Part shown: one piece after another, positions 337-45,712 of the stretch
Position numbering within the stretch: position 1 is the stretch's first letter
Layout: the number at the start of each line of letters is the position of its first letter
DNA from: a virus
IMG/VR virus record: IMGVR_UViG_3300034072_001852
Location: 1-45,736 of that record
Direction: 5' to 3' (one strand)
Length of the DNA stretch: 45,736 nt
The notes under the pieces: generated by a model
The model's database searches: none
The model's input: only the letters and a program-made list of their open reading frames with translations
Told to the model about the DNA's origin: nothing
Position numbers and translations under genes: made by a program

Positions 337-1578
337 TCAGCTTTCAGGCTCTAGTTCGAGCGAAGCCTGCATGGGGAAATATGCATCGGCAAGGCTGCAA
401 GCCAAATTGGCGGCAAGCACTGGAGGGACTGCATTTCCGACCTGAGTGAACTGTCTGGCAGTCGGTCCGAGAAACACATAATCATCGGGGAAGGTCTGCA
501 ACCGTGCGCATTCACGCACACTCAAAGTGCGCGGGATTTCCGGATGCAAGTGAGAGCGGCCGCCGCCATTCGTTCCGCCTGCGATAACGGTCTTGGAAGG
601 TTGCGTCGGATCAAGCCGATCAACTCTGCCCAGTTTATCGCGCTGTCCATAGCGCAGCTTCATATACCGCTCGATTGAGCCTGCTTTGTGCGAGCGGGTT
701 TCGTGATTGGGTATACCTTCCGGCAGATCGCTGAGCACACTGGCAGCGCCATAATGCTCTTGTGCGACTGGAAATTTGAAAGACGCGTTGGTGCGAGATC
801 CAACGACAAAAAGCCGTTCACGATACTGAGGGACGCCATGATCGGCTGCATCGAGAACGGTCGGCTCGTTCACAATATAGCCGTGGTCAGCCAGCATCTC
901 GATTGCAGCTGTCAGCTGTTCGCCACCGTCAAGGTCACGCAGCCCTGGCACATTCTCCACGACGAAGACCTTGGGGCGAAATTCAATGATCAGTCTGACA
1001 TAATCGAATAGCAGGTTGCCGTTCTTTTCATGGGCGAATCCAACCCGCTTGAAGTTATCTCCCGACCGCGAAAACCGCTGATTGGCGGCAATCGAGAATG
1101 GCTGGCATGGTGGGCCGCCGATGAATACCCCGTCGAACGGCTTGCTGATCAGAGGTTCCAGAGCGTCTCTGACCTCTTCGAATTTGGACACATCGCCACT
1201 GCTATATGGCGGTCCGAAAACCTTCCAGCCGGGACGGTTCTTTCTCAGTGTGCGGCAGAAAATCTCGTTATATTCGAACGCTGCCACATGCTCGAAACCG
1301 ATCTGTTCAAAGCCAAGATCCATACCGCCGCAGCCAGTGAAAAAGCTCACCACCGGCACACCATGAACGCGTTGGCTGAAGTCTGAAAGCTTGGACGGCG
1401 ATCCACCTGTCCACTGCTTTTCGAATGCCCGCTCGTAGACCAGGTCATCGTAAGATTTGCCGGCGCCGCTTAACGCATCTGCCAGATCCAGATCGTTCCT
1501 CACAGCATCCGCGATAAGCCGTTGCTGCACCGCATAGGTGAAATCAGGAGCCTTTGGCTTTTTGGTGGCGGCTGGCAT
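337..1578 (-). CDS. dcm: DNA (cytosine-5)-methyltransferase
   Basis: This 413-residue C5-cytosine methyltransferase would transfer a methyl group from S-adenosylmethionine to cytosine in a short DNA target. Visible motifs in order: SAM-binding FFTGCGGMDLGF (about residue 80), catalytic GGPPCQPFS (about 155), VVENVPGL, QYRERLFVVG, and C-terminal RECARLQTFPDDY and QVGNAVPP. The roughly 75-residue N-terminal extension is unassigned. The ATG at 1578 overlaps the stop of the HNH gene (TGATG), so the two are translationally coupled; a TTG one codon earlier is possible. Pairing with an HNH nuclease suggests a type II restriction-modification unit carried as prophage cargo. The recognition sequence cannot be read from the gene. 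Confidence 0.95.
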   Translation of the reverse strand: MPAATKKPKAPDFTYAVQQRLIADAVRNDLDLADALSGAGKSYDDLVYERAFEKQWTGGSPSKLSDFSQRVHGVPVVSFFTGCGGMDLGFEQIGFEHVAAFEYNEIFCRTLRKNRPGWKVFGPPYSSGDVSKFEEVRDALEPLISKPFDGVFIGGPPCQPFSIAANQRFSRSGDNFKRVGFAHEKNGNLLFDYVRLIIEFRPKVFVVENVPGLRDLDGGEQLTAAIEMLADHGYIVNEPTVLDAADHGVPQYRERLFVVGSRTNASFKFPVAQEHYGAASVLSDLPEGIPNHETRSHKAGSIERYMKLRYGQRDKLGRVDRLDPTQPSKTVIAGGTNGGGRSHLHPEIPRTLSVRECARLQTFPDDYVFLGPTARQFTQVGNAVPPVLAANLACSLADAYFPMQASLELEPES

Positions 1579-2726
1579 CAAGGGTCCCTTCGATCTTTTT
1601 TAGCGGCTTCATAGACTGCCCGGGCTTCCTTCGCATCAGCGAAGTCCTTTCGCCCGTTAGCCTTGAGCCACATTGCATAATACCGGTGCACTGCCCTGTG
1701 ACAAGTCGGGCAAAGCGGCACAAGGTCTGTCAGATTGGTGCCTCCCGACGATGACCTCGTTCCAGAACAAAGCGGCAACACGTGATGGATGTCAAGCACC
1801 CGGTCAGCCCATGGAAACTCTTTCTTGGTGTCTTTCTCGCAAAAATCACAGCACGTGGTCGGGTTCTTGGCAAAGAAAGCTGACCTGACGTTGGCATTGC
1901 GCTCGAGAACGATGTGTGTCCGTTCGACACGGGTGCCTTCCGAAAAGCCAGCGTCTACGGTTTGGTCGATGATCGTTTGCGAATAATCCAATTCAAGCTC
2001 TGCAACCGCCCCCTCATAGACATCTGCCAGAGCCATGATCTCCCGTTCACGGTCATCCTCATCACCTGTGACCGGTGCCAAGCCTTCGAACACGTCAAGC
2101 GCATCGGCTGACATCAGGGAGACGGTCACTGAGGTCGATGTTGCGCTCAGGTAGGATATCTGGCTGATGACCTGGATGCTCTCTCGAGCCTGCCTGTGAT
2201 CGTCAGAATCCCAATCCTTCTTTGCAAGCGCTATGAAGGCGGATTGATCCTCATCCCCGGAAAAACCGCTTTTCACATAGGCGCCGATAATCTCGCGATA
2301 GGTCGATGTCGGCTGTCCGATGTTCGACCTCGCCAGCAAAAACTTCAGCGTAAACAGCAGCGGGAAACGGGGCTTGTCAGTCTTTTTCCATTCCTGAAAC
2401 GATGGCGCCGGATCCGTGAACGTCTGGGCAAGGAAGTGAAAATACTCGTCTGAGGTGACCTTCCCATCCTCTGCCAGCAGCTTCGCCACCTTTGTCGGTT
2501 TGGCTACGCCATCAATAGATGCCACCAACATGGCGGTTCTGAACACCCGGGAGTAATTGCGCCAAGGCGGGTAGTCTTGGCTGGCCGGCAAAAATGGGAG
2601 GCCAGTAGCCTCTGACAGTGCCTTGTGAGTTGCAGTGCGCAGATTATTGGCAACTGCAAATTTTGCGATCTTCCGTATTTCATCAAACTGGAAATACTCG
2701 ATTCGCCCTTGGTCAAAGCGCCACAT
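1578..2726 (-). CDS. HNH endonuclease, probable restriction partner of the methyltransferase
   Basis: The protein has 382 residues. The last 100 or so form an HNH nuclease fold: a CDFC half of a zinc site, the catalytic IHHVLPLC segment, an Asn in GGTNLTDLVPLC, then CPTCHRAVH completing the Cys4 zinc site. The first 270 residues match nothing I recognise and may be the target-recognition part. ATG 2726 is chosen because AAGGGA lies six bases upstream; a TTG at 2747 is the alternative. It is the first gene of a two-gene operon with the methyltransferase. Restriction of unmodified DNA is inferred from this pairing; a stand-alone methyl-dependent nuclease is less likely. Confidence 0.85.
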   Translation of the reverse strand: MWRFDQGRIEYFQFDEIRKIAKFAVANNLRTATHKALSEATGLPFLPASQDYPPWRNYSRVFRTAMLVASIDGVAKPTKVAKLLAEDGKVTSDEYFHFLAQTFTDPAPSFQEWKKTDKPRFPLLFTLKFLLARSNIGQPTSTYREIIGAYVKSGFSGDEDQSAFIALAKKDWDSDDHRQARESIQVISQISYLSATSTSVTVSLMSADALDVFEGLAPVTGDEDDREREIMALADVYEGAVAELELDYSQTIIDQTVDAGFSEGTRVERTHIVLERNANVRSAFFAKNPTTCCDFCEKDTKKEFPWADRVLDIHHVLPLCSGTRSSSGGTNLTDLVPLCPTCHRAVHRYYAMWLKANGRKDFADAKEARAVYEAAKKDRRDP

Positions 2727-2881
2727 ACCTTTTCCCTTTCCGGGCAAGGTTTAACGCGACGGGAAAACAAGTACCACCCTGCGACTCAGTCCATCAACAG
2801 ACTTATCTCATGCGGGCCATGCATCTCGGCTTGCCATCGCCCGCCGCAGCTGGGACCATATGCATGTGCAGGGAGACGCAC
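2727..2881. other. Divergent intergenic region
   Basis: This short spacer separates the minus-strand HNH/methyltransferase operon from the plus-strand gene at 2882. It should hold both promoters. I see no repeat box of either promoter family described elsewhere in this prophage. Confidence 0.4.
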
Positions 2882-21681: not shown

Positions 21682-21837
21682 ATGATCACTCGAACCGCAA
21701 ATTTTGACGTTCGTCACCTCGCACAGGGCAAGGGCGCCATGGGCTTTGACCCAGGCGTTCTTGTGTCTGGTGCTGTGCTGAAGGTGCGTCGGGAAAAGGT
21801 CGCAAAGCAGGAGGGTCGCAGCAATGGATCCGATTGA
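21682..21837 (+). CDS. Small basic protein upstream of the capsid gene
   Basis: This 51-residue protein begins MITRTANFDVRHLAQGKGAM and ends in a basic tail (LKVRREKVAKQEGRSNGSD). No family is recognised. The reading frame would be easy to dismiss, but its ATG sits exactly 36 bases from a late-type promoter, like the terminase and tape measure genes. It overlaps the protease-capsid gene by 14 bases, and the ribosome site of that gene (GGAGG) lies inside it. It could be a minor head protein or simply set up translation of the next gene. Confidence 0.5.
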   Translation: MITRTANFDVRHLAQGKGAMGFDPGVLVSGAVLKVRREKVAKQEGRSNGSD

Positions 21838-23998
21838 AATCCTGCTTTACGGCGTCATCGGTTATGCTGAGGACGATTGCACCGCCAAGTTCGTTCGGGC
21901 GCAGATTGCGAACAGCGAAGGCGACATCATCGTCCGCATCAATTCGGGTGGCGGCTATGTTGTCGAAGGTCTGGCGATCTTCAACGCTCTGGATGAGGCC
22001 CGCAAGGCTGGTCGCAAGGTAACTGTCCATATCGACGGTCTGGCTGCATCCATGGCTTCGGTCATCGCGATGGTCGGCGAAGAAATCCACATTGCCGACA
22101 ACGCCATGATGATGATCCACAATCCGTGGGACATTGCCATGGGCGATGCTGAAGCCCTGCGTCGCAAGGCCGATCAGCTGGACAAGGTTCGCGATCAGCT
22201 GGTCAAGATTTACGCAGACCGCACCAAGCTGAGTGTCGATGCTGTGACCGCCCTGATGAAGGCGGAAACCTGGATGGATGCTGATGAGGCCGTCGAGAAC
22301 GGCTTCGCCACGTCCAAGACCGAAAGCGAGTCTGCGAAGGCGCAGGTCAAGCCGGTCGATGTTTCGCAGTTCGGCTTCAACAAGGTTCCTTCTGGAAATC
22401 CTCTCATTGTTTTCAACCCGGCCAAACCGTCCCCTTCGACGGCGATGGCATCAACCCAAGTGTCGAAGGAGACTACTGTGGATCCCAAACTGATTGCCAA
22501 GATCCTGGCATTCGCCCGCGCCAACAATGTTTCTGCGGCTCTGCAGGACAAGGCTCTTACTGGCGAAATCACCTATGACGAAATGGTGGCACAGCACAAT
22601 TCGGAGGTTGCGGCCGCTGCCGCTGCGGCTGCCGCTGGCAACACGGATCCGGCGCCCGCCAATGCTCTGAACGCCGCTGCTGTCACCCGCGTGCTGAACT
22701 ATGCCCGTGCTCATGCCGTCGCTGATGACCTCCGCGATCAGGCTCTGACCGGTGCGATCACCTTTGACCAGATGATCGATCAGCACATGGCTGCGCTGGT
22801 GGATGCCGATATGCAGAATGACACGTCGAACGTGCGCACTCGCAATCAGCGTGAAACCTCGCCTGCTGACGAAATCCGCATGCGCGCACAGATGCTGACT
22901 GTGGCTTCGCTCGAAGGTCTTGGCCTGAGCGTGCCGGAATCGATGCGCCCCGATGAGCGCACCCGCGCCTATGGTGAGCAGTCGATCCGTTCGCTGGCGT
23001 CGGCTGTCTGCCGTGTCAACGGTATCCAGGTTCGCGCCGATGCTAGTGACCGTGAAGTGATTCAGGCTGCTATGCAGGTGCAGGGTGCACGTGCATCGGC
23101 CGGCGGCGTGATTTCGACCGGAGATCTGGGCAATGTGCTCGGACAGCCGATCCGTGCTGTGTTCGACCGTGGTTATCAGGACCAGCTGGCTGAGACGACC
23201 TACGGGGAATACACCACCGAAATGCTGGTGCCTGATTTCAAGGGCGTGTCGATGGTCAACATCGGCCTGTTCTCTGGCATCAAGAAAATCAGCGAAGGCG
23301 GCAAGCTGCCTCTCGCCAAGCTTGGTGACGGTGCGCGTTTCGTGCAGCTGGGCACCGATGGTCTGAAGGTCAGCTTCACTCGTGAGGCGATCATCAATGA
23401 CGAGTTTGGCGCACTGATTTCGTCGGTGAACATGCTCGGCATGATCTTCCGTCAGACCGAAGACGATCAGGCTATGGACGCTCTGGTCAACGGCGTGATG
23501 GTCGAAAAGAATGCCGCTGGCGGATGGGAAGAAAGCGATGTCTTCGCTGAAGAGTATAACAACCTGATCGAGGTTGCGGCTCTGGACGATGACGGCATTG
23601 CAGCTGCCCGCCTGGCTATGCGCTCGCAGCGTGGCAAGGGTAATTACCGCCTGAACATCGCACCGCGCATTCTGGCTGTGTCGCCTGACCTTGAGAATGC
23701 AGCGATGAAGCTGATCGCTTCCAATGTGGTGGCTGCGAAGCTTGCCGATGTCTCGACTGCACAGGCGATGAACCTGCGCGTGATCGTGCTCGACAAGCTG
23801 CCTGAAGGCACGTTCTTCCTGATGGGTGCAAAGCAGTTTGCGCAGATCGTGAAGGTGCTGCGCCTGCAGGGTTCGCGTGGTCCGCAGATCTATTCGATCC
23901 CGGTTGCAGATCGCCTGTCGCTGGAATGGGGTGCGATCAATGACTTCGCTGCCCAGTGTGTCGGCCGTGTCGGAATCGTGAAGGGGACGATCGCTTAA
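21824..23998 (+). CDS. ClpP-type prohead protease fused to scaffold and major capsid protein
   Basis: The 724-residue protein has three parts. Residues 1-175 are a ClpP/S49-like maturation protease: INSGGGYVVEGLAIFN, catalytic Ser in GLAASMASVIAM, catalytic His in MMMIHNPWDI. Residues about 215-335 look like a scaffold: two copies of a 40-residue unit (ARANNVSAALQDKALTGEIT and ARAHAVADDLRDQALTGAIT) joined by a poly-Ala linker. Residues about 345-724 are the capsid protein (SPADEIRMRAQMLTVASLEG ... to LSLEWGAINDFAAQCVGRVG). Cleavage between the parts is expected. GGAGG lies eight bases before the ATG. An internal start at 22478 may give scaffold-capsid alone. Confidence 0.92.
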   Translation: MDPIEILLYGVIGYAEDDCTAKFVRAQIANSEGDIIVRINSGGGYVVEGLAIFNALDEARKAGRKVTVHIDGLAASMASVIAMVGEEIHIADNAMMMIHNPWDIAMGDAEALRRKADQLDKVRDQLVKIYADRTKLSVDAVTALMKAETWMDADEAVENGFATSKTESESAKAQVKPVDVSQFGFNKVPSGNPLIVFNPAKPSPSTAMASTQVSKETTVDPKLIAKILAFARANNVSAALQDKALTGEITYDEMVAQHNSEVAAAAAAAAAGNTDPAPANALNAAAVTRVLNYARAHAVADDLRDQALTGAITFDQMIDQHMAALVDADMQNDTSNVRTRNQRETSPADEIRMRAQMLTVASLEGLGLSVPESMRPDERTRAYGEQSIRSLASAVCRVNGIQVRADASDREVIQAAMQVQGARASAGGVISTGDLGNVLGQPIRAVFDRGYQDQLAETTYGEYTTEMLVPDFKGVSMVNIGLFSGIKKISEGGKLPLAKLGDGARFVQLGTDGLKVSFTREAIINDEFGALISSVNMLGMIFRQTEDDQAMDALVNGVMVEKNAAGGWEESDVFAEEYNNLIEVAALDDDGIAAARLAMRSQRGKGNYRLNIAPRILAVSPDLENAAMKLIASNVVAAKLADVSTAQAMNLRVIVLDKLPEGTFFLMGAKQFAQIVKVLRLQGSRGPQIYSIPVADRLSLEWGAINDFAAQCVGRVGIVKGTIA
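22466..22480 (+). promoter_or_regulatory. Internal ribosome site and GTG start inside the protease-capsid gene
   Basis: AAGGAG (22466-22471), six bases, then in-frame GTG (22478). It would start a 506-residue scaffold-capsid protein (MDPKLIAKILAFARANNVSA at its N terminus), giving excess capsid over protease as lambda C/Nu3 does. Confidence 0.55.
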
Positions 23999-25651: not shown

Positions 25652-26428
25652 ATGTCTATCGCATCCCTTTCTCCCGGAACGCTTTTCCGCCCCCGTGGGC
25701 AGGGTCTGCTGACCATTGCCGGCGTGACGCAGCCTGTCGGAAGCGTTGACCTTTCTCGCACGATCACCGTGACCGATGCTGACGTTTTCACCAACGAGTT
25801 CTACAACAAGACGCTGATCGACAGCCAGATCGACGAATTCCTTTGCGAACTGACCCTTGGCTTCAGACAGGTCAGCAAGCTGGCTTTGGCCATGGCGAAC
25901 CTGTCGAATTATCATGCGCAGGCGCAGGCGGCGGCGCAGGGTGTTGAGGTTGCCTTCGATCTGACCGATCAGGAACTACCGGTCACCGTCCCGCTGGGCA
26001 AGCGCAAGACCAAGGATCATGTGGTCACCTCGACGAACGCTATCGATTTCGTCGAAGGCGTGCACATCATCACTCATGCTGGCGATAAATCGCCCGGCTT
26101 TGTGTCGTTCATTGCGATACCGGCTGGTGCCGATCTGGACGGCACGATCACGTTCGACTGCGATGCTGCCAATGCGACCCGTTTCAACATCGGCGAACTG
26201 TCGAGTGTGGAAGCGAAGTTCGAATGGATTCAGGCATCGAAGCCTGGCAGCGACCAGTCGGACATCTATCACGTTTACCACAAGGTGCAGTTCCGTCCCG
26301 ATGGGGACTGGACGCTCTCGAGCGATAGCGCGGATCCAATGATTTTGACCGTGAAGGGCAAGTGTGTTGCCGACACCACCAAGCCCGTCGAACAGCAGAT
26401 TGGCTACGTCGAAATTTCTGACGACTAA
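25652..26428 (+). CDS. Major tail protein
   Basis: The 258-residue strand-rich protein forms the tail tube. The N-terminal domain runs from LFRPRGQGLLTIAGVTQPVG through FCELTLGFRQVSKLALAMAN-like helices; the C-terminal domain includes KFEWIQASKPGSDQSDIYHV and the closing QQIGYVEISDD. Its place between the gpU-like gene and the G/T chaperones is that of lambda V. AAGGAG lies seven bases upstream. It ends at a strong terminator, which suits a high-level structural gene. Confidence 0.72.
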   Translation: MSIASLSPGTLFRPRGQGLLTIAGVTQPVGSVDLSRTITVTDADVFTNEFYNKTLIDSQIDEFLCELTLGFRQVSKLALAMANLSNYHAQAQAAAQGVEVAFDLTDQELPVTVPLGKRKTKDHVVTSTNAIDFVEGVHIITHAGDKSPGFVSFIAIPAGADLDGTITFDCDAANATRFNIGELSSVEAKFEWIQASKPGSDQSDIYHVYHKVQFRPDGDWTLSSDSADPMILTVKGKCVADTTKPVEQQIGYVEISDD

Positions 26429-27339: not shown

Positions 27340-30300
27340 ATGGCGACCACTCAGCGTTCCAACATTGAAGTTTTCTTTCGCGTCCTTGGCGCTGAGAACC
27401 TGCGCCGTCAGATGCAGCGGGTGTCTCAGGCCGGGATTGCGACGGGTCGCCAGCTGGGCAATTTTGGCGCCGGGATTGGCAGCGCTCTGGACTTTGCAGG
27501 GCAGAAAGCGATCCAACTTTCCCGGACGCTGGCAGTTGTCGGTGCTGTAGGCTTTGGTGCGCTCGCCAAGGGGATTCAGGACACCACCAATGCGTCGGCT
27601 GAACTGACATCAACTGTTCTCGCTCTAAGGGCGGTCAACGGGGAAATCTCGAAGGCGAGCGGCCTGCCACGGTTCCGCGCAACTGCCGACGGCAACCTGA
27701 TCGATGAGAATTCTGGTGGTGCCAGAAAGTCGGCAGCGAACCTTGCCTTCATTCAAAACACGGCTGATCGCACAGGCGCGTCGATTCTGAATCTGTCGCG
27801 TCAGTTCGTCCAGTTGAACGCATCGGCCTCTGCGGTCGGGATTCCTGTCAAGAACGTCGAGAACCTGTTCACGGGCGTGACCAGCGCGTCGAACGTGCTT
27901 GGTGTATCTTCCGAACAGACCTCTCGAGCTTTCGTTGCCCTTACGCAGATTGCATCCAAGGGTTGTCACGCCCCTGGCACCCTTATTTTGATGTCGGACT
28001 ATTCCGAAAAGCTTGTCGAAGAAGTTGTCGTTGGCGATGAACTGATGGGTCCGGATGGAAATCCGCGCCGTGTTCTGCGTCTTGCGCACGGCACTCAGGA
28101 CATGTTCCGGGTTATTCCTTCGAACAAGATGTGCCACCCGTTTGTGGTCAATCTTGACCATAAGTTGCGTCTCGCGACTGCGCTTTATGGTGTTGAATTC
28201 ACCATCGAAATGTCGGCATATCTCTTGCTGCCGCAAGAGGTTCGCGACGAACTGTTCTTGATCAACCGTCATCATATCAACCAGCATGTTAGCTTCACGG
28301 TTGAACCGGTCGGTTGCGGTGAGTTCTACGGTTTCCAGATCGAAGGCGACCACCTTTATCTCGATGCTCAGGGCTTCGAGCACCACAATACCGTCGCGGC
28401 CGAAGAGCTCCGTGGCCAGCTATCGGAGGCTTTGCCCGGTGCGATCCCGCTTGCCGCTAAGGCATATAGGGTTAGCGTAAAGCAGTTCCTGGACGCTGTA
28501 GCCAAGGGCAACGTTGACGCCGCATCGTTCATCAAAAAGTTCGGCGATGCCCTGAACAAGGAATATTCGTCGGCTGCTGATGAGGCTGCGAACACGACCC
28601 GCGTTGCCCTTGGACGGCTGCGCAACGAGTTCTTCCTTGCCCGGGTGCAGATCGGCAATGGCGCGCTTGATCAGGAATTCAAGCGCATCATCGATGCTGC
28701 CAACGAACTGTTCGACACTCTGAGCCGGACGGGTGCCTTTGCCCGTTTCGGTGTGAACCTCGCAAATGCATTGCGCCCGCTGGCTGATCGGTTTGAGGCG
28801 GCTGTTCGTGGTGGTTTCGACTTCGAGGTCATCCTTGATGCACTGGCAGGTGCGGCCTCAGGAATCGTGCGCGGTTTCCTCGTTCTGGTGTCCGTATCGC
28901 GTCAAATCCTGCAAGCCTTTTCGAACTTGAAGGATCTGTTCGAGGATTACGGGTTTTCGCTTGAACCTATCGGCGATCTGATCATCGGCGTGGCTGATGC
29001 ATTTCGCCAGCTTAGCGAGGTGCTTTCGACCCGGAATTACAGCGGCAACGGCTTCATCGATTTCTTCGCGTCGGTCTATTTCCTGATCGAACAGATCGTC
29101 ATCGCCCTTGCTCGCCTGCTGAATCCGCAGATCGGTCCGGGCATCCAGTCGCTCGAGCAGGCTTTCGCCCGTGTTGCCCGGTTCATCAACCAGGCGGCTC
29201 TTGCGGTGCAGTCGCTATCGACCGGACAGATTGCGCCCGGCCTTGATGAGGAAGGGCAGGGCATCCTTGTCTGGCTGGCTCTGGCTGTCGACCGTGCCCG
29301 CTTGCTTCAGGCTGCGATCAAGGAAGCCTATGCGCTGCTATCGGGTGCACCTGCGCCTCAGGGAGCGGACGTTGCCACACAGCAGCGTTTTGCCACCCGT
29401 GATGCAGTTGGCGACCTGTTCGCTGGCAGGGAAAATGTTGCCCGGGTCGATGAGCAGGGCAATACGCTCTATGATCCCCGTGATCTCGATATCCTGTTCA
29501 TCATCCGGGACACCATCGACCGCATCGTCAATTTCATCGTCGCCAACAAAGGTGCCTTTGCGGCTGTGTTCGACGGTGCAGCTGACACCATACAGGCTCT
29601 GATCGATATCATCGGCGAGCTTTCGAAGGTGCTTGATCCGGTTGCGCAGGCACTCGGGTTCGAAGATCTGAACATCGCCATCGGTTATGCCATCGGCTTC
29701 CTTTTCGTGATGGGCAGGGTGGCTGCGATCATTGCGCTCATTCGTGGCGCAATTCTGGCGATGGTTGGTGCTCTCAGTTCGTTTGCGGCCGTGCTTGGCC
29801 TGACGATGCCTCAATTCCTTGTGATTGCCGCAGCTGTAGGCCTGATCGCTTTCGGCGTCGGCAAGATCGTGTCGAACTGGCAGCTTCTGAAGGATGAGGT
29901 CGGCAACATCATCACACTGATCGGTGCCGGCCTGACCGATGTGCTCGCCAACGTCATCCGTCAGCTTGCCAACCTGCTGAGCTATCTCCCGGGCATTGGA
30001 GGCTTCCTTGACCGTGAGCTCAACCAGCTTGCCGACAAGTTGAATGAGGGCACAGAGGCTGCCCGCGAATTCGTCAACGCCAGTTCGCTCGAGGCGACTT
30101 CCCGGCGCCAGGTCGAGAATGGTGGAAAGGATCCGTTTAGCGACGCCGGACCGAATGGCTTCGATGCTTTCTCGTTCCTGTCGGACAGCGGGCTTACCGG
30201 CATGGTGAGCGACCTTGGCGATAAGCAGGACGAAACCAACCGCATCCTTGATGGCATCGCACAGCAGAATGCAGCGGGCACGGCTGATCAGGCTGCCATG

Positions 30301-30501
30301 GAGCGACAGATCCGGGAGGCTGCGGCCAATGCGGCTGGTGGCACGGGTCCGGCTGCCGATTTCTCGCGTCCGGTGATCATCTATCTGAGCGACGGCAGCC
30401 AGATCGAAATGCGTGGCAGACCGAATGACGCGAACATCGACCGGTTGGCGGCGCAGGGTGCCAAGAACCGCACCGGTCAAACTCCATCGTGGGCAGGCTG
30501 A
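27340..30501 (+). CDS. Tail tape measure protein containing an in-frame mini-intein
   Basis: The 1053-residue precursor (911 after splicing) sets tail length. The N-terminal tape measure domain includes ADRTGASILNLSRQFVQLNA. Residues 209-350 are an intein inserted in the conserved motif: the flanks join as ALTQIASKG + TVAAEELRGQLSEALPG, a hallmark of tape measure proteins. The rest is long helices with a hydrophobic, membrane-like region (about 780-860: YAIGFLFVMGRVAAIIALIR, FLVIAAAVGLIAFGVGKI) as expected for DNA-ejection tape measures, then a disordered Gly/Ala tail. It is the longest gene, follows G/T, and starts directly at a late-type promoter. Confidence 0.93.
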   Translation: MATTQRSNIEVFFRVLGAENLRRQMQRVSQAGIATGRQLGNFGAGIGSALDFAGQKAIQLSRTLAVVGAVGFGALAKGIQDTTNASAELTSTVLALRAVNGEISKASGLPRFRATADGNLIDENSGGARKSAANLAFIQNTADRTGASILNLSRQFVQLNASASAVGIPVKNVENLFTGVTSASNVLGVSSEQTSRAFVALTQIASKGCHAPGTLILMSDYSEKLVEEVVVGDELMGPDGNPRRVLRLAHGTQDMFRVIPSNKMCHPFVVNLDHKLRLATALYGVEFTIEMSAYLLLPQEVRDELFLINRHHINQHVSFTVEPVGCGEFYGFQIEGDHLYLDAQGFEHHNTVAAEELRGQLSEALPGAIPLAAKAYRVSVKQFLDAVAKGNVDAASFIKKFGDALNKEYSSAADEAANTTRVALGRLRNEFFLARVQIGNGALDQEFKRIIDAANELFDTLSRTGAFARFGVNLANALRPLADRFEAAVRGGFDFEVILDALAGAASGIVRGFLVLVSVSRQILQAFSNLKDLFEDYGFSLEPIGDLIIGVADAFRQLSEVLSTRNYSGNGFIDFFASVYFLIEQIVIALARLLNPQIGPGIQSLEQAFARVARFINQAALAVQSLSTGQIAPGLDEEGQGILVWLALAVDRARLLQAAIKEAYALLSGAPAPQGADVATQQRFATRDAVGDLFAGRENVARVDEQGNTLYDPRDLDILFIIRDTIDRIVNFIVANKGAFAAVFDGAADTIQALIDIIGELSKVLDPVAQALGFEDLNIAIGYAIGFLFVMGRVAAIIALIRGAILAMVGALSSFAAVLGLTMPQFLVIAAAVGLIAFGVGKIVSNWQLLKDEVGNIITLIGAGLTDVLANVIRQLANLLSYLPGIGGFLDRELNQLADKLNEGTEAAREFVNASSLEATSRRQVENGGKDPFSDAGPNGFDAFSFLSDSGLTGMVSDLGDKQDETNRILDGIAQQNAAGTADQAAMERQIREAAANAAGGTGPAADFSRPVIIYLSDGSQIEMRGRPNDANIDRLAAQGAKNRTGQTPSWAG
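27964..28389 (+). mobile_element. 142-residue mini-intein inside the tape measure gene
   Basis: Begins at Cys209 (CHAPGTLILMSDYSEKLVEE, block A; then VVGDELMGPDGNPRRVL). Block B is HPFVVNLDHKLRLA, with the conserved His but Asn in place of the usual Thr. Block F is GEFYGFQIEGDHLYLDAQGF and block G is HHN, with penultimate His and terminal Asn350; the +1 extein residue is Thr351. All splicing residues are present and no homing endonuclease domain is left, so it should splice but not home. Confidence 0.92.
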
Positions 30502-30989
30502 TGACGATACCCTGGACATATCTGACCATCGACGGTGTGAGGCCGCTGAACAAGACAGCGACCAACATCACGGTCGATTGGAGCTTTGTCGAAGCTGGTG
30601 GCAGGCTCGTTCGCCTTGCCAATGGCGAGCGCGTGTCCCTGCGCCGTAGACAGTTCGACAAATACAAGATCACCATCAATGGCGAAGCGACCCGCAAGCC
30701 TGCGATCGATCATATCGTTCCCGGACAGATCGTCGAGATTGGCTTCCCGGGGCACTTCGACCTTCCCGGCGATGTTGCGGATGAGGATCTGCCGCGTCCG
30801 GCTGTGGTGGGTTCGATCCTGCGATTTGGCGAGGTGAATGGCAGGCCGGTTCCGATGGAGCATGGCGACCCGGGAGTGCTTGTGACCGCCTTCCGTCCTG
30901 TCCTGCAGGTCATGATCGACAACGTGGATATCAGCGAACGGGCTGGCGACGCCAAGGTCAACTGGAGCATCACAGGGGAGGAAGCCTGA
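30501..30989 (+). CDS. Tail protein downstream of the tape measure gene
   Basis: The 162-residue strand-rich protein starts MTIPWTYLTIDGVRPLNKTA, and ends NVDISERAGDAKVNWSITGE. The ATG overlaps the tape measure stop (TGATG). Position suggests a distal tail or baseplate component, in the place of lambda M or L, but without the Cys cluster of L. No family name is supported. Its C-terminal stop overlaps the next gene in the same way. Confidence 0.6.
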   Translation: MTIPWTYLTIDGVRPLNKTATNITVDWSFVEAGGRLVRLANGERVSLRRRQFDKYKITINGEATRKPAIDHIVPGQIVEIGFPGHFDLPGDVADEDLPRPAVVGSILRFGEVNGRPVPMEHGDPGVLVTAFRPVLQVMIDNVDISERAGDAKVNWSITGEEA

Positions 30990-32794
30990 TGCCTCTCGGC
31001 AATGTGTATGTCGCTCTGGTCGGTGATGATGAGGAATTCGATCCGGTGCTGCATGCGCGGCATGATTTCGATCTGGTCAACGCCTTCCCGAAATGGTCGG
31101 AGAAAGATTTCTGGGCAATCGATCTGGAAATCGACAACCCCGGTGGCGGCTTGTTCCGTCCGGGCAAAACCCGGGTGTTTATCTCGGAAGACGTAAACGG
31201 GGTGGTGCAGCACAGCTTCACGGGGCGGCTTCAGGGCTGGCCTCTTGGTGCAGCTGGTGAAACCGTCACGGTCACTCTCAAATGCAAGCCTAAAAATCAC
31301 GAGGCTGTCGAGATTGATGCGCTGTCAGGTATCAACGATGACCCGTTCTACTGCTTTTCGGATCCTGACGACAAGCGCACGTCCGATGTGGTTCTGGCTG
31401 CCCGCTCTGCCTTGCTGCATTGGGGCCGTGATGAATCTGCGCCGGTTCTGGTTGATCTGATAGAGGGCAACGGGTTCATCGATATTGGCGACGCCTTCAT
31501 TGAAGGCAGCCTGCGCTTTGACGAACCGGGAGAGCACATCTCCAAGGTCGAAGTGACTGTGAAGGCCGAATGGCCCCAAGCCCTTCCGGTGGCGGTCGAT
31601 ATGGCCGGTGCGCTTGGCGATGGCATCTTCGGGACGCTGTCTGGTCCGACGTTCGAAATCCCTCAATTCGGGGAGACGGTTGGCGACTGGACGATCATCC
31701 GCTCGAGCGTGGCGGAAATCGGCATTCCTCCCGGTGGCTTGAGCCCTTTCAGCCGGACCTATGCGTCATCGCCGAACAAGACCAGCAAGGTGCAGGCGAA
31801 TACGGACACCGGGTCTGTCGATGTGCGGTTCCGGCGCCGGTTCTTCGATGTGGATTTGCTTGCGGCATCCGTGCTGACAGCCAACCGCCGGGAGACGCTC
31901 AAGTTCACACTGGCCTGGACGGGGCAGGAAATCGCCAATTACGACGGGCTGACCGAAACGGTTGAACTCGATTGCCGGAACATGCGCCGGGACGTGTTCA
32001 GCGGAGAGGCACCCCCCTGGCAGCCGGGCGTGGCTGTGAACAAAAACCAGATCGCTTCCTTCAACGGTGCGACATGGCTTTGCAACACCGCCCATGTGAC
32101 GGGTGGATCGCTCTATGCGGATTTCGACAAATGGGATCCGCTGCTGTTCGATTACAGCCCGTCCGGTGGTCAGGCATCGTCCAAGTTCTTCGGTGCGCCG
32201 ATCATCCTTCAGGGCAACGCTCCGAGTGGCAATCAGCAGCTGATTTTCCGTAACCCGACGCCTGGCTGGTATGCGTTCCGCTATGCGCTGTTGCAGGCGC
32301 GGGCGAAGCTGATCACCGGGGTGAGGGTGGTGACGGCTTCCTTTGAGGTGCCTTGGATCAATGTCTGGAACATCACGGGCCGGGAGCGCATTCGCATTGC
32401 CGATCCGATGCTGCCCGGTGGCGAGATGGTGGGCAAGGTTACGGCCATTTCGGCTGACCTGATCGATGGCGTTGCGACGATCACGATTGCTGCGGCCCCA
32501 GGCAATGGCGGGTTCGAGCCTGTGCCTTTCATCCCGAATTATGCCGTGCCGACACTGGTCAACGCAGGGATAATCTCTGCCGACCTCGCGTTCGATTTTG
32601 CGGCGCAGGAAGCGGCTCTGGCTGCCTTTGAGCATCCTGCCGATGCCGACCTGTTCGAGCTTCTGGAAAACGACCTGCGCACCCGCCTGAATTGGGTTCT
32701 GGCGCCAACGTCGGACACGCCCGAATTCGAGGTGACGGTCGATGTCGGCACCCTGAACTTTGACACTGACCAGATGGTGGACCTGTATTCATGA
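30989..32794 (+). CDS. Large tail-tip protein (baseplate/hub)
   Basis: The 601-residue, strand-rich protein begins PLGNVYVALVGDDEEFDPVL. Residues about 355-400 (GEAPPWQPGVAVNKNQIASF ... FNGATWLCNTAHVTGGSLY) look like a short carbohydrate-binding insert of the chitinase type. The C-terminal part includes PWINVWNITGRERIRIADPM and a helix LFELLENDLRTRLNWVL. Large tail proteins with such inserts usually form the hub or bind cell-surface sugars. ATG in TGATG. Exact equivalent in lambda is not clear. Confidence 0.6.
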   Translation: MPLGNVYVALVGDDEEFDPVLHARHDFDLVNAFPKWSEKDFWAIDLEIDNPGGGLFRPGKTRVFISEDVNGVVQHSFTGRLQGWPLGAAGETVTVTLKCKPKNHEAVEIDALSGINDDPFYCFSDPDDKRTSDVVLAARSALLHWGRDESAPVLVDLIEGNGFIDIGDAFIEGSLRFDEPGEHISKVEVTVKAEWPQALPVAVDMAGALGDGIFGTLSGPTFEIPQFGETVGDWTIIRSSVAEIGIPPGGLSPFSRTYASSPNKTSKVQANTDTGSVDVRFRRRFFDVDLLAASVLTANRRETLKFTLAWTGQEIANYDGLTETVELDCRNMRRDVFSGEAPPWQPGVAVNKNQIASFNGATWLCNTAHVTGGSLYADFDKWDPLLFDYSPSGGQASSKFFGAPIILQGNAPSGNQQLIFRNPTPGWYAFRYALLQARAKLITGVRVVTASFEVPWINVWNITGRERIRIADPMLPGGEMVGKVTAISADLIDGVATITIAAAPGNGGFEPVPFIPNYAVPTLVNAGIISADLAFDFAAQEAALAAFEHPADADLFELLENDLRTRLNWVLAPTSDTPEFEVTVDVGTLNFDTDQMVDLYS

Positions 32795-33366
32795 TCGAAC
32801 GTGCCCTGAAGAAACTGCAGGCCAAGCCCCCCAAATCGGGTGACGTGCTACCCCGTGGCGGCAAGCCATCGCTGGCTGTGAGTGAGGTGACGCGGGTTCC
32901 GCCATCGGACACGGATTTCCAGCGCAACGAGAACGGCATCATGAAGCGTTCGGGCACACCGACGCTGGGCATGGGGCATGACTGGGGATGGATGCCGCAG
33001 CGGGCGATGGAAATCCGCAACAGCGTTCATTCGGTGATCGACCTTGGTGCGAAGGCCGGCGCGGTATCCCTGAAGGTGGAGCATGCACAGATTTACGTGG
33101 TGCAGCCATCGGCGGCGATATCACTGCTGTTCGACACATCCGGTGTTGTCGATACCTATGGCCGTGAAGGGGTGAACGTCGACTTTCTGGTGATGATCGA
33201 AAACCCTGGTGGCTTTGGCGTGACCGTGAATGTCAATCATTGGGCACCGACCGGGGCTGCGCCGAACCTCAACCGGGCTGGCTTTTTCGAGCTTCTGGTG
33301 TCGATCGCATTGCTGCCGTCGCGTCAGATTTCGCGTGGCTATCCCTGTATCCAGGATGTGACGTGA
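32791..33366 (+). CDS. Tail-associated protein
   Basis: The 191-residue product has a basic N-terminal helix (IERALKKLQAKPPKSGDVLP) followed by a strand-rich domain (AGAVSLKVEHAQIYVVQPSA, VNVDFLVMIENPGGFGVTVN). ATGA links it to the gene before and TGATG to the one after. Order and composition suggest a minor tail-tip or fibre-anchor protein. No family recognised. Confidence 0.55.
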   Translation: MIERALKKLQAKPPKSGDVLPRGGKPSLAVSEVTRVPPSDTDFQRNENGIMKRSGTPTLGMGHDWGWMPQRAMEIRNSVHSVIDLGAKAGAVSLKVEHAQIYVVQPSAAISLLFDTSGVVDTYGREGVNVDFLVMIENPGGFGVTVNVNHWAPTGAAPNLNRAGFFELLVSIALLPSRQISRGYPCIQDVT

Positions 33367-34505
33367 TGTTTGGTCTGCCTCAGCGCCGGATGTCGGCTGC
33401 CCTCAACACGCCAGTCGAGTATCCGGCGGATTATAACGTTTTCAATAATTATTACATTGGCCGTAGACCAGGCGGTGGATATCAGATTGGCAGAATCTCG
33501 TTTGCACCTCCCTCGGGCAATCCAGGTAATGAGGTAGTTAATGGAAGGTTCTTAACCTATCTGGCAAGAACTGCACCTGCCAATGATATAATATTTTTGG
33601 CAGGATCTTTTTTTGGCGATAATCCCAACGCCGTTCGAACTGATAATGCAGATTCTGACACGGTTTATAACCGTTCGGAAACGCACCCCTACGGGTTCTT
33701 TTATCCGACGGGCAGGAATGGAGCTTTGCTGCGAGGAGCATATGGTGCATCTGGCAGTTGGCCGGTTGGAGTTGTGTCTACTCGCGGAACTGGGAACGAT
33801 GTCTATCTGTTTGATGGAAGCAGAGATTTGCCTTTTGAAATAATCGTCTACTTTAGAAAAGATATCTATGGGCTTGATAACGTCCGCCGACTATCTACGT
33901 CCCCAGCTGAAATACTTGCAAGCGAGCAAACCGGATTTTCAGAGAGAACGGTTGCCTACAGATTTGAAAGCTCAATACCCAGGCTACTTTTTGAAGTAGA
34001 AGTTTTTGACATAAATTTGCCATTCTGGACTTGGAAAGTTTCCCCATACACAGGAAATCTTGCAAATGGTAGATATAGGATAAATAACGGTGTTATAACA
34101 ACGACACCACCTAACAATTTGCCTAATTGTGAGATTAGGTCGCAGATTAGGTTTGTATATTCATCTAGTGACGGATTTTTGCCTAATGTCCTTAGTGGAA
34201 GCCAAACATTTCGGGCTGCCTGTGTAGAATCCGACAGATCACTCTTGAGTCTTCCGTTAGGAACATCTCCCGATCCAAATGATATAAATCCTATATGGAG
34301 CCTGTATGGAGGCGATGTTCGCATAAATTGGCTACGGCAAGTGTCTGTGAACGGTGGACCTTGGTATACGCCATCAGCCCCTTTTCCAGTACCGACAAGT
34401 CCGCCAAGTCCTATCATTCAAACCCAAGGTGATCGATGGGTCAGGGCTTTAGCTACCGGGATTGGGATTCAAAAGGGCATGCCAACTCAGCTTGTCTCGC
34501 CATAG
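33366..34505 (+). CDS. Probable receptor-binding or tail-fibre protein
   Basis: The 379-residue protein is rich in Tyr, Asn, Gly, Ser and Pro (VFNNYYIGRRPGGGYQIGRI, NGRYRINNGVITTTPPNNLP), as is common for fibre tips. From about residue 20 to the end the DNA is far more AT-rich than its neighbours and uses rarer codons such as AGA, ATA and TTA, a sign of recent acquisition. The start ATG overlaps the previous stop; an earlier in-frame start at 33240 would lie within the previous gene. Host-range determinant is an inference from place and composition. Confidence 0.6.
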   Translation: MFGLPQRRMSAALNTPVEYPADYNVFNNYYIGRRPGGGYQIGRISFAPPSGNPGNEVVNGRFLTYLARTAPANDIIFLAGSFFGDNPNAVRTDNADSDTVYNRSETHPYGFFYPTGRNGALLRGAYGASGSWPVGVVSTRGTGNDVYLFDGSRDLPFEIIVYFRKDIYGLDNVRRLSTSPAEILASEQTGFSERTVAYRFESSIPRLLFEVEVFDINLPFWTWKVSPYTGNLANGRYRINNGVITTTPPNNLPNCEIRSQIRFVYSSSDGFLPNVLSGSQTFRAACVESDRSLLSLPLGTSPDPNDINPIWSLYGGDVRINWLRQVSVNGGPWYTPSAPFPVPTSPPSPIIQTQGDRWVRALATGIGIQKGMPTQLVSP

Positions 34506-43412: not shown

Positions 43413-44156
43413 GTGCCGCCCTCGTTTACCACCCGGCAACCCGGAACGACTACGGCTCGAGCCATGCTTATTGCCAATGACACCATCGTGCCATGGTCGC
43501 CATACAGGCAGGAAACCTTTCCCCGCTCCAAGGGGAGAGTGATACTGTGCGATGCGCTGTCAACCTATGCCTTGGTGCAGCACGGCATCTCTCCTATCGA
43601 AATAGCAGACGCCTTCGCACACCCGGGAGATGATCGCACCCGCTCGATTATCGCATCGGATATCAGGTTTCTTGGCAGCCTGTTCATGGACGGCCGGATC
43701 AAGACATTCGCCCGACCGCTGGCTGGTGGCGAACCCTTGCCGATGGCAGAAAGCCTTTGGGAGCTTGATGACTATACCCATAGGTTCGCAACGTGCGCCC
43801 TGGACCTGCGCAAGCCGTTCGACGTGGAAGCGACACCGACGCATCGGATTTTCGTTGCGGAGGATGGTCTGCAGGATCTGATCGATTTCTGCTGCGCGGA
43901 TGTCATGCCCGCAGGGTGGAGCCGATCACCTTCAGCAAAGGTCGCGAAAGAAACCAGCAAGCCTGTTGTCGATGTCATCCCTGCACCGACCGATCGTTTG
44001 CTCCGACTGCCAGACGTAGAGAGGCTTGTCGGGTTTAAGCGTAGCGCGATCTATTCGCGGATCGAATCTGGCTCTTTCCCGCAACCTCTCAAGAGCGGCA
44101 AGATATCGGTCTGGCGAGAATCGGAGGTCGTGGCCTGGCTGTCAGATCTGGCCTAA
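43407..44156 (+). CDS. AlpA-type regulator / excisionase candidate
   Basis: The product has 249 residues. The last 55 (LLRLPDVERLVGFKRSAIYS ... SVWRESEVVAWLSDLA) are an AlpA/MerR-like winged HTH as in phage Cox and P4 Vis excisionases. The first 190 are unrecognised and contain LCDALSTYALVQHGISPIEI. Its place between repressor and integrase suggests control of excision and lysogeny. ATG 43407 fits the leaderless promoter geometry; ATG 43401 is two codons longer. Its end overlaps the convergent integrase gene by four bases. Confidence 0.75.
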   Translation: MKVPPSFTTRQPGTTTARAMLIANDTIVPWSPYRQETFPRSKGRVILCDALSTYALVQHGISPIEIADAFAHPGDDRTRSIIASDIRFLGSLFMDGRIKTFARPLAGGEPLPMAESLWELDDYTHRFATCALDLRKPFDVEATPTHRIFVAEDGLQDLIDFCCADVMPAGWSRSPSAKVAKETSKPVVDVIPAPTDRLLRLPDVERLVGFKRSAIYSRIESGSFPQPLKSGKISVWRESEVVAWLSDLA

Positions 44157-45466
44157 AACACACCCCGCCTGCGCCCTTCAATCAACTCCATGGCCGGTGC
44201 AGCACCCTGCAACAGCATATCGGCCCATGCGGTCGCCAGTTCCCGCCTGCGCTCCATATAGGCGTGGCGGTTATAGACGAATTCATCGCCGGACATCCCG
44301 CTGGGCTTGTGTGCTAGCATCAGGTCGATGATCAGCCGGTCAAGGTTGAACCGCTCCATCCCGAACGCCTGTCGCTCCATACGTCCGTTCATAATCGTGC
44401 TGAAGGATGACCGCCATCCATGGGCGCAATGCTTCCCCTGATAGCCAAGCCGGTTGTATAGATAGGTCAGGGTGTTTTCCGACATCGGCTTGTGTGAAGC
44501 CCATGTGGAAGGGAAAACCATCATGCCGTTGCCGGTCAGTCTGCGCACGGCATGCAGCACGTCGACCGCCTGCTGTGGCAATGGCACACTATGGTCCCAT
44601 GCGCTGTCTGCGCCTAGTGCGAGCTCGAGTTTCATTCGGCTGGCAGGAACCTTCCATACCGCGTCGGGAGAGGGCGCATCCGGATTCGACCAGTCGATGC
44701 CGTGCAATTCTGTCCAGGGCATCGCTCGCACCATACCGGGCCGCTGGGCAGTGATTGCGAGGAAGCGTGATGCGAGGCGAGTAGTGGGCATACAGGCCGC
44801 CTGATCGATTTCGCGCACGAGTATGCGCAAGGCGTCCAGATCGACGATGGCAGGCCGCATCTTGCTCTTGGGCACCCGCTTCAAGGCAGCTTTGACCGAA
44901 TGAGCAGGGTTGCCGCACTCAGACCCGCTGGCGATGGCATATTCGAAGATTTTCTCGCACCGCTGCCTGAGGCGGGCGGCTGTCTCGATTGCGCCCCGAT
45001 TTTCGACCTGCTGCAAAACAGACTTCATCAGCATCCGGTCGATATCCTCTATCGGATAGCTGCCCAGCGACGGGAATATGTCACGCTCGAGGCTGGTGAT
45101 CACGTCATTGGCATGCACGGGCTTCCAGTTGCCCTGCATCTTGCCATACCACTCCCGTGCCCATTGCTCGAATGTCTCAGTGGCCTTGTGTTGCGCTGCA
45201 AGCCTTGCGCGTTTGCTCTCGAGCGACGGATCCTGCCCATTTGCCAGAATACGCTTGGCATCCTCTCGTGCGGCGCGGGCTTGCTTCAGTGACATGGCGG
45301 GATATCGACCAAGCACCAGCAATTTTTCCTTGCCGTAATACCGGTATTTGAGACGCCAGCTTTTGCCGCCCTTTGGCGTGACGAACAGATAGAGCCCGCC
45401 TGAATCAGAAAGCTTGTATGGCCGATCTTTCGGAACCGTAGCCTGTGCGGCTTTGTCTGTCAGCAT
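44153..45466 (-). CDS. int: Tyrosine integrase (P4 type)
   Basis: The 437-residue site-specific recombinase inserts the phage into tRNA-Ser. An N-terminal DUF4102 arm-binding domain starts MLTDKAAQATVPKDRPYKLS and has GGLYLFVTPKGGKSWR. The core-binding domain is about 100-200. Catalytic residues: Arg in ITAQRPGMVRAM, His-x-x-Arg in HGWRSSFSTI, His in LAHKPSG, and Tyr in YNRHAYMERRRELA. ATG 45466 matches the usual family start; the frame extends to 45502 through the ATACCCCC boxes. Located next to attR and facing away from it. Confidence 0.95.
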   Translation of the reverse strand: MLTDKAAQATVPKDRPYKLSDSGGLYLFVTPKGGKSWRLKYRYYGKEKLLVLGRYPAMSLKQARAAREDAKRILANGQDPSLESKRARLAAQHKATETFEQWAREWYGKMQGNWKPVHANDVITSLERDIFPSLGSYPIEDIDRMLMKSVLQQVENRGAIETAARLRQRCEKIFEYAIASGSECGNPAHSVKAALKRVPKSKMRPAIVDLDALRILVREIDQAACMPTTRLASRFLAITAQRPGMVRAMPWTELHGIDWSNPDAPSPDAVWKVPASRMKLELALGADSAWDHSVPLPQQAVDVLHAVRRLTGNGMMVFPSTWASHKPMSENTLTYLYNRLGYQGKHCAHGWRSSFSTIMNGRMERQAFGMERFNLDRLIIDLMLAHKPSGMSGDEFVYNRHAYMERRRELATAWADMLLQGAAPAMELIEGRRRGVF

Positions 45467-45619
45467 CGATACCCCCAGTGGCTGGATCGACACCCCCAAC
45501 ATACCCCCGGGAGGTGCCGGAAGGGGACGGCATGATACGGAAGGTGCCGGTCGATTATCGACGGCAAACGCTTAAGAATCAATGACTGAAGGAAGGTGGC
45601 GGACGGTGGCAAAAGGCCA
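45467..45619. other. Integrase upstream region with candidate arm sites
   Basis: ATACCCCC at 45469-45476 and 45501-45508 and ACACCCCC at 45490-45497 echo boxes at 183-201. GGAAGGTGCCGG-type repeats follow (about 45510-45560). The region should hold the int promoter and integrase/excisionase arm sites. Confidence 0.45.
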
Positions 45620-45643
45620 AGTGGCGGAGCGGGAGGGATTCGA
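45620..45643. repeat. attR: attR, within the tRNA-Ser 3' end
   Basis: Exact 24-base match to 103-126. The phage-borne copy rebuilds the T-arm and acceptor end of the tRNA, so the gene stays functional after insertion. Confidence 0.93.
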
Positions 45644-45712
45644 ACCCTCGATACGCTTTTGACGTATACTCACTTTCCAGGCGAGCGCCTTCGACCACTC
45701 GGCCACCGCTCC
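45622..45712 (-). tRNA. tRNA-Ser (GGA)
   Basis: The 91-base minus-strand gene begins GGAGCGGTGGCCGAGTGG, has the anticodon arm CTCGC-CTGGAAA-GTGAG with anticodon GGA, the long variable arm typical of serine tRNAs (TATACGTC-AAAAGCGTATC region), T-loop GGTTCGAATCC and a CCGCTCCGCCA end with encoded CCA. It is a host gene used as attB. Confidence 0.96.

Follow-up and report, generated by a model that had tools for sequence, protein, structure and literature searches.

A mini-intein with predicted class-1 splicing chemistry in the tape measure protein of a phage

The window analysed here is the complete stretch of a virus record, 45,736 bases long. Downstream of its major tail protein gene (25652-26428) lies an open reading frame (27340-30501) with matches to Pfam TMP_3 (E=2.5e-18) and PHROG 2335 (phrog_2335; E=3.2e-48). 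It codes for a tape measure protein (TMP) that is interrupted in frame by 142 codons. This locus raises the question whether the insert is an intein and, if so, what role it plays in a structural protein of the tail.

With the insert included, TMP_3 matched the precursor in two pieces broken at profile position 104, scoring 66.9 bits for the whole protein and 53.8 bits for its first 406 residues. Removal of the insert gave a single stretch over profile positions 21-185 with 90.4 bits and raised the TIGR02675 score from 24.1 to 41.3 bits. The TMP_3 match that assigns the host to the tape measure family is present in the precursor and is restored by excising the insert, in agreement with the initial annotation, which had placed the site in a conserved tape measure motif. 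These proteins are most conserved in the motif that the insert interrupts, according to a ranking of columns that is partly imposed by the motif used for picking the sequences. When the domain of a relative without the intein was modelled, the site fell in the turn between helices 83-99 and 104-114 (pLDDT ~97 in this region).

Table 1. Positions of the tape measure gene and of the mini-intein features in the window.
Feature	Position	Strand	Description	Evidence
Tape measure protein gene	27340..30501	+	1053-aa precursor, 911 aa after predicted splicing	Pfam TMP_3, phrog_2335
N-extein	27340..27963	+	208 aa, C-terminal QIASKG	TMP_3 profile 21-104 on residues 125-208
Mini-intein	27964..28389	+	142 aa, Cys1 to Asn142, residues 209-350	Hom_end_hint, AF2, Foldseek, clade
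Cys1, predicted first nucleophile (block A)	27964..27966	+		Invariant in 13-intein alignment
Block B motif NLDH (Asn63, His66)	28150..28161	+		His66 invariant, Asn63 nearly invariant in 13-intein alignment
Deleted LAGLIDADG endonuclease, approximate scar	28258..28299	+	Near residues 99-112	~200 residues there in full-length relatives
Block F (EFYGFQIEGDHLYLD)	28321..28365	+		Intein alignments
Block G, His140-His141-Asn142	28381..28389	+		HHN in 3/3 TMP inteins
Thr+1 of C-extein, predicted second nucleophile	28390..28392	+		Thr in 3/3 TMP intein carriers
C-extein	28390..30498	+	703 aa, N-terminal TVAAEELRGQL	TMP_3 resumes past profile position 104

A search of residues 209-350 against intein profiles, as proposed in the initial annotation, returned Pfam Hom_end_hint (E=2.1e-17), and the nearest solved sequences were those of PI-SceI and Prp8 inteins (E=5e-9 to 1e-6). 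The AlphaFold2 model of the window intein, built on 13 related inteins, reached a mean pLDDT of 95.6, and Foldseek revealed the Hint fold with TM values of 0.92-0.93 to the Cryptococcus Prp8 inteins (PDB: 6mwy, 6mx6). These inteins, like PI-SceI (PDB: 1gpp), which matches the window intein in sequence, differ from it in residing in eukaryotic host proteins. The segment starts with CHAPGTLILMSD, continues with NLDHKLRL (N63..H66) and GEFYGFQIEGDHLYLD and ends with EHHN before Thr; its reading order is CHAPGTLILMSD...NLDHKLRL...GEFYGFQIEGDHLYLDAQGFEHHN, then TVAAEELRGQL. In the block B pattern TxxH, His66 is kept and Asn63 stands where the canonical Thr is expected; Asn is close to a rule at this position in the group of the window intein, endonuclease-bearing relatives included. 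Cys1, the C-terminal His-Asn and Thr at +1 are the residues of class 1 inteins. Assignment to class 3 was rejected, with Cys1 being present and Cys118 lying upstream of block F and being absent from the other two TMP copies.

In viral contigs, the window intein has relatives of ~340 aa that are full-length, LAGLIDADG endonuclease included. Their hosts are ATP-binding proteins, among them helicase-like and terminase-like ones, and the typical site is GK|C...HN|S/T. The splicing domains of such full-length inteins (L001-L011 and ORF42 of Listonella phage phiHSIC) are 31-43% identical to the window intein and display the same pattern of blocks A, B, F and G, including NxxH in block B. Unlike the window intein, they retain the endonuclease and usually occupy GK/G sites of P-loops, where position +1 is Ser, Thr or Cys. 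The window intein keeps the whole splicing domain but lacks ~200 central residues, those of the endonuclease, and is therefore a mini-intein. The initial annotation had described such an element on the basis of its motifs; the Hom_end_hint match, the alignment with endonuclease-bearing inteins and the predicted fold bear out this identity, the additional ~200 residues that separate the two halves in the relatives confirm that the endonuclease is gone, and the proposed boundaries, motifs and product lengths (142 and 911 aa) were all correct.

Three further mini-inteins of the same family were found unannotated. Vibrio phage 13VV501A (L020, 2001-2441) carries one of 147 aa in a P-loop protein, and a second Hint-like C-terminal motif (...TYIANGVVVHN|C) downstream in the same reading frame suggests that this one protein holds two inteins. 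The others are located in a helicase-like protein of Proteus phage vB_Pmi_BCPPmi_001 (L021, 2001-2420) and in a terminase-like protein (L022, 2501-2905).

Four phages of Ruegeria (DSS3-P1, vB_RpoS-V7, V11 and V18; AIT13283.1 and others) carry a mini-intein at the same TMP position, 48.6% identical to the window copy and identical among the four. As in the window, it runs from Cys1 to HHN between KG and T, with the junctions ALTQIAGKG|CHAPG...HHN|TLQMEELRQQL. The exteins, in contrast, are only 30-36% identical to those of the window over the alignable part, and the Ruegeria precursor has 1744 aa. The gene is labelled solely as tail tape measure protein, leaving the intein unannotated, and the genome announcement does not recognise the insert as an intein (PMC6256702). 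A third copy of 136 aa was detected in an IMG/VR phage (L024; QIASKG|CHAPG...HHN|TVSMEELRQQL). The three TMP inteins are mutually 47-52% identical, and Cys1, His66, HHN and Thr+1 are kept in all of them despite this divergence of ~50%. The insertion lies exactly between Gly and Thr in 3/3 carriers. At the level of sequence, the profile match, the matches to solved inteins and the same-site copies in two other phage lineages put the insert far beyond chance.

No carriers beyond these three lineages were found among 274 loci, and scans of bacterial and archaeal genomes revealed no prophage TMP intein. Loci L201, L213, L229 and L250, suggested as inserted copies by match length, have empty sites. 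The three independent carriers stand against ~180 distinct empty sites. Thr+1 had appeared rare in empty sites (7/79), which did not hold in a larger set (T in 50/180 and S in 3/180 distinct sites, together ~29%), and the closest empty sites of the Ruegeria type already have Thr at +1. The sets counted depend on the search patterns used; Thr+1 alone is therefore weak evidence.

Empty alleles are known for two of the carriers. Ruegeria phage V16, to which locus L115 is identical across the 2-kb query, shares 98.8% identity with DSS3-P1 in the upstream flank (5.0 kb) and 94.4% in the downstream flank (4.9 kb), and a clean gap of 417 nt separates the two exactly at the intein. The occupied junctions read GGG|TGC...AAC|ACC, and the empty site of V16 is intact (GGC|ACC). 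The V16 TMP has 1614 aa, that of DSS3-P1 1605 aa in spliced form and 1744 aa as precursor, and the two are 96.3% identical. The genome announcement described the V16 gene as "ca. 500 bp shorter" and offered no reason (PMC6256702); the difference between the annotated genes is 390 nt (5235-4845), that is the 417-nt intein minus 27 nt of other indels. For L024, the blastn breaks against its empty relatives L054/L196 and L200 fit an insert of 408 nt. In both cases an in-frame insert is accompanied by relatives that are missing exactly this insert, and in the Ruegeria phages the presence or absence of the intein changes on a recent time scale. For the window phage, neither whole-TMP nor extein-only searches revealed a close relative in the viral contigs, and the phage collection held no nucleotide match; therefore, no near-isogenic empty allele is known for it. 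In the V16 record (MH015258.1, 27419-33972; L276, 7420-13973) the annotation seems to be displaced by one gene in several places: the real tape measure (29128-33972) is called "tail protein", and the name "tail tape measure protein" is given to the gene that follows it.

Two further explanations of the insert were considered. An autoprocessing Hint domain, whether bacterial intein-like (BIL) or of another kind, would cleave rather than ligate. BIL domains share the Hint fold, but their structures ranked lower in the fold search (TM ~0.66-0.69) and the best profile and fold matches are true inteins; together with the Thr+1 nucleophile, the single identical insertion point in three phages and the empty alleles, this makes such a domain highly improbable. 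An in-frame group I intron, a sequencing chimera or a misassembly has next to nothing in its favour beyond the fact that homing-gene introns interrupt tape measure genes elsewhere, for example in ICP1 (PMC10448857). The insert stays open over exactly 142 codons, and the homology of its product to inteins already contradicts an intron; no intron families were found in the window, and independent assemblies contain the same insert, among them those of phages with a sequencing depth of at least 450x.

We consider the window segment a real intein, and splicing of its precursor is inferred from the residues and the modelled fold. The steps below follow from these and from established class-1 chemistry. 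In the inter-helix turn of the most conserved TMP motif, this PI-SceI/Prp8-like (Hom_end_hint) class-1 mini-intein would start with an N-S acyl shift, in which Cys1 forms a thioester with the Gly of the N-extein. The chain would then be transferred to Thr+1, Asn142 would cyclise with the help of His141, and an O-N shift would join the exteins to give the 911-aa tape measure and a free 142-aa intein. Alternatively, a Hint-fold insert that has lost splicing might persist as an additional domain of the mature tape measure. The site lies in a turn between two helices that could still pack, so an unspliced protein might be tolerated. However, the most conserved tape measure motif would stay split, three copies of ~50% identity have all retained the splice residues Cys1, His66, HHN and Thr+1, and the spliced TMP of DSS3-P1 is close in length to that of V16 (1605 versus 1614 aa) between near-identical flanks, and we regard such an insert as unlikely.

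A tree of 163 tape measure domains, with the intein left out, assigned each of the three carriers to a different clade of intein-free proteins. This tree requires three changes; 3 changes also make up the 5-95% range of the bootstrap trees, none of which needs only one. In a tree of 22 intein splicing domains, by contrast, the three TMP inteins form one clade (support 98/95). One intein clade against three host clades implies that a single endonuclease-less, site-specific allele has apparently moved between phages. The simplest reading of the two trees appears to be a single endonuclease loss in an allele specific for the TMP site, followed by transfer of this allele between phages; many independent intein losses are the alternative. 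The LAGLIDADG endonuclease was probably lost before the three known copies diverged, and at least two transfers of the allele between unrelated phages (or a large number of losses) would have followed. Candidate routes into different recipients are recombination via the conserved motif and an endonuclease encoded elsewhere; recombination in the conserved flanking motif is the most likely way of movement. GC3 of the window intein is 0.59, compared with a mean of 0.67 (s.d. 0.03) for 426-nt stretches of its exteins, which is a weak hint of acquisition from outside.

The initial annotation had further suggested that splicing could time tail assembly, on the assumption that it must come before coating by the G/T chaperones. 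This idea is not supported. Phage V16, which infects the same host and has near-identical flanks, has no intein in its TMP gene, so tail assembly does not require the intein there. That a working mini-intein serves as such a regulatory switch through its splicing is very unlikely: conditional splicing is described for other inteins (PMC6195587, PMC5790916) and the nearest folds are Prp8 inteins, but the intein is dispensable in the Ruegeria phages, only three independent carriers face the many empty sites, and the extra Cys57 and Cys118 of the window copy are absent from the other copies. As the other TMP copies are without these two cysteines, redox control through them was discarded as a general property. 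That a TMP-specific lineage spreads without its own endonuclease and that splicing also gates the step from a soluble precursor to an assembly-competent tape measure is, as a combination, improbable. The intein would rather be a genetic passenger that is tolerated and splices out, not a regulator. Taken as a whole, a splicing-competent class-1 mini-intein, present as a mobile allele of the TMP site and tolerated as a passenger, is very probably the correct explanation.

Other genes of the window were noted alongside. A C5 cytosine methylase adjoins a 389-aa HNH-domain protein (337-2747, minus strand); the pair looks like restriction-modification and not like an intein endonuclease. An integrase gene adjoins a tRNA-Ser (44153-45712; tRNA at 45622-45712, minus strand), which is likely the attachment site, and the phage is probably temperate. 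One reading frame of 724 aa (21824-23998) matches a head maturation protease and then a major head protein, and is apparently a fused protease-capsid protein.

The initial annotation had called a tape measure protein an unusual intein host, and the literature supports this. A survey of mycobacteriophage inteins lists the terminase (TerL), RecB-like proteins, the portal, helicase and others as hosts (PMC5050341). Like the window intein, these reside in conserved motifs of phage-specific proteins; the survey contains no tail or tape measure host, and its text nowhere uses the word "tail". The tape measure gene of ICP1 is interrupted by an RNA-level homing-gene insertion, which differs from an intein (PMC10448857). 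In those parts of the open-access literature that were searched, no intein in a tape measure protein was reported, and an earlier report may exist elsewhere. New here are the insertion site and the class of host protein, while the predicted intein chemistry is ordinary.

Surveyed phage inteins are found mostly in DNA-handling enzymes, plus portals, and the structural tape measure is a new kind of host. Its length sets the length of the tail, so an unspliced form should show by size and in virions. Among the cultured phages of Ruegeria pomeroyi DSS-3, those that carry the intein (DSS3-P1, V7, V11, V18) and the one that lacks it (V16) form a natural pair in which the cost, benefit and mobility of an endonuclease-less intein can be addressed. 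With one intein clade in three host clades, the persistence and spread of a mini-intein become testable.
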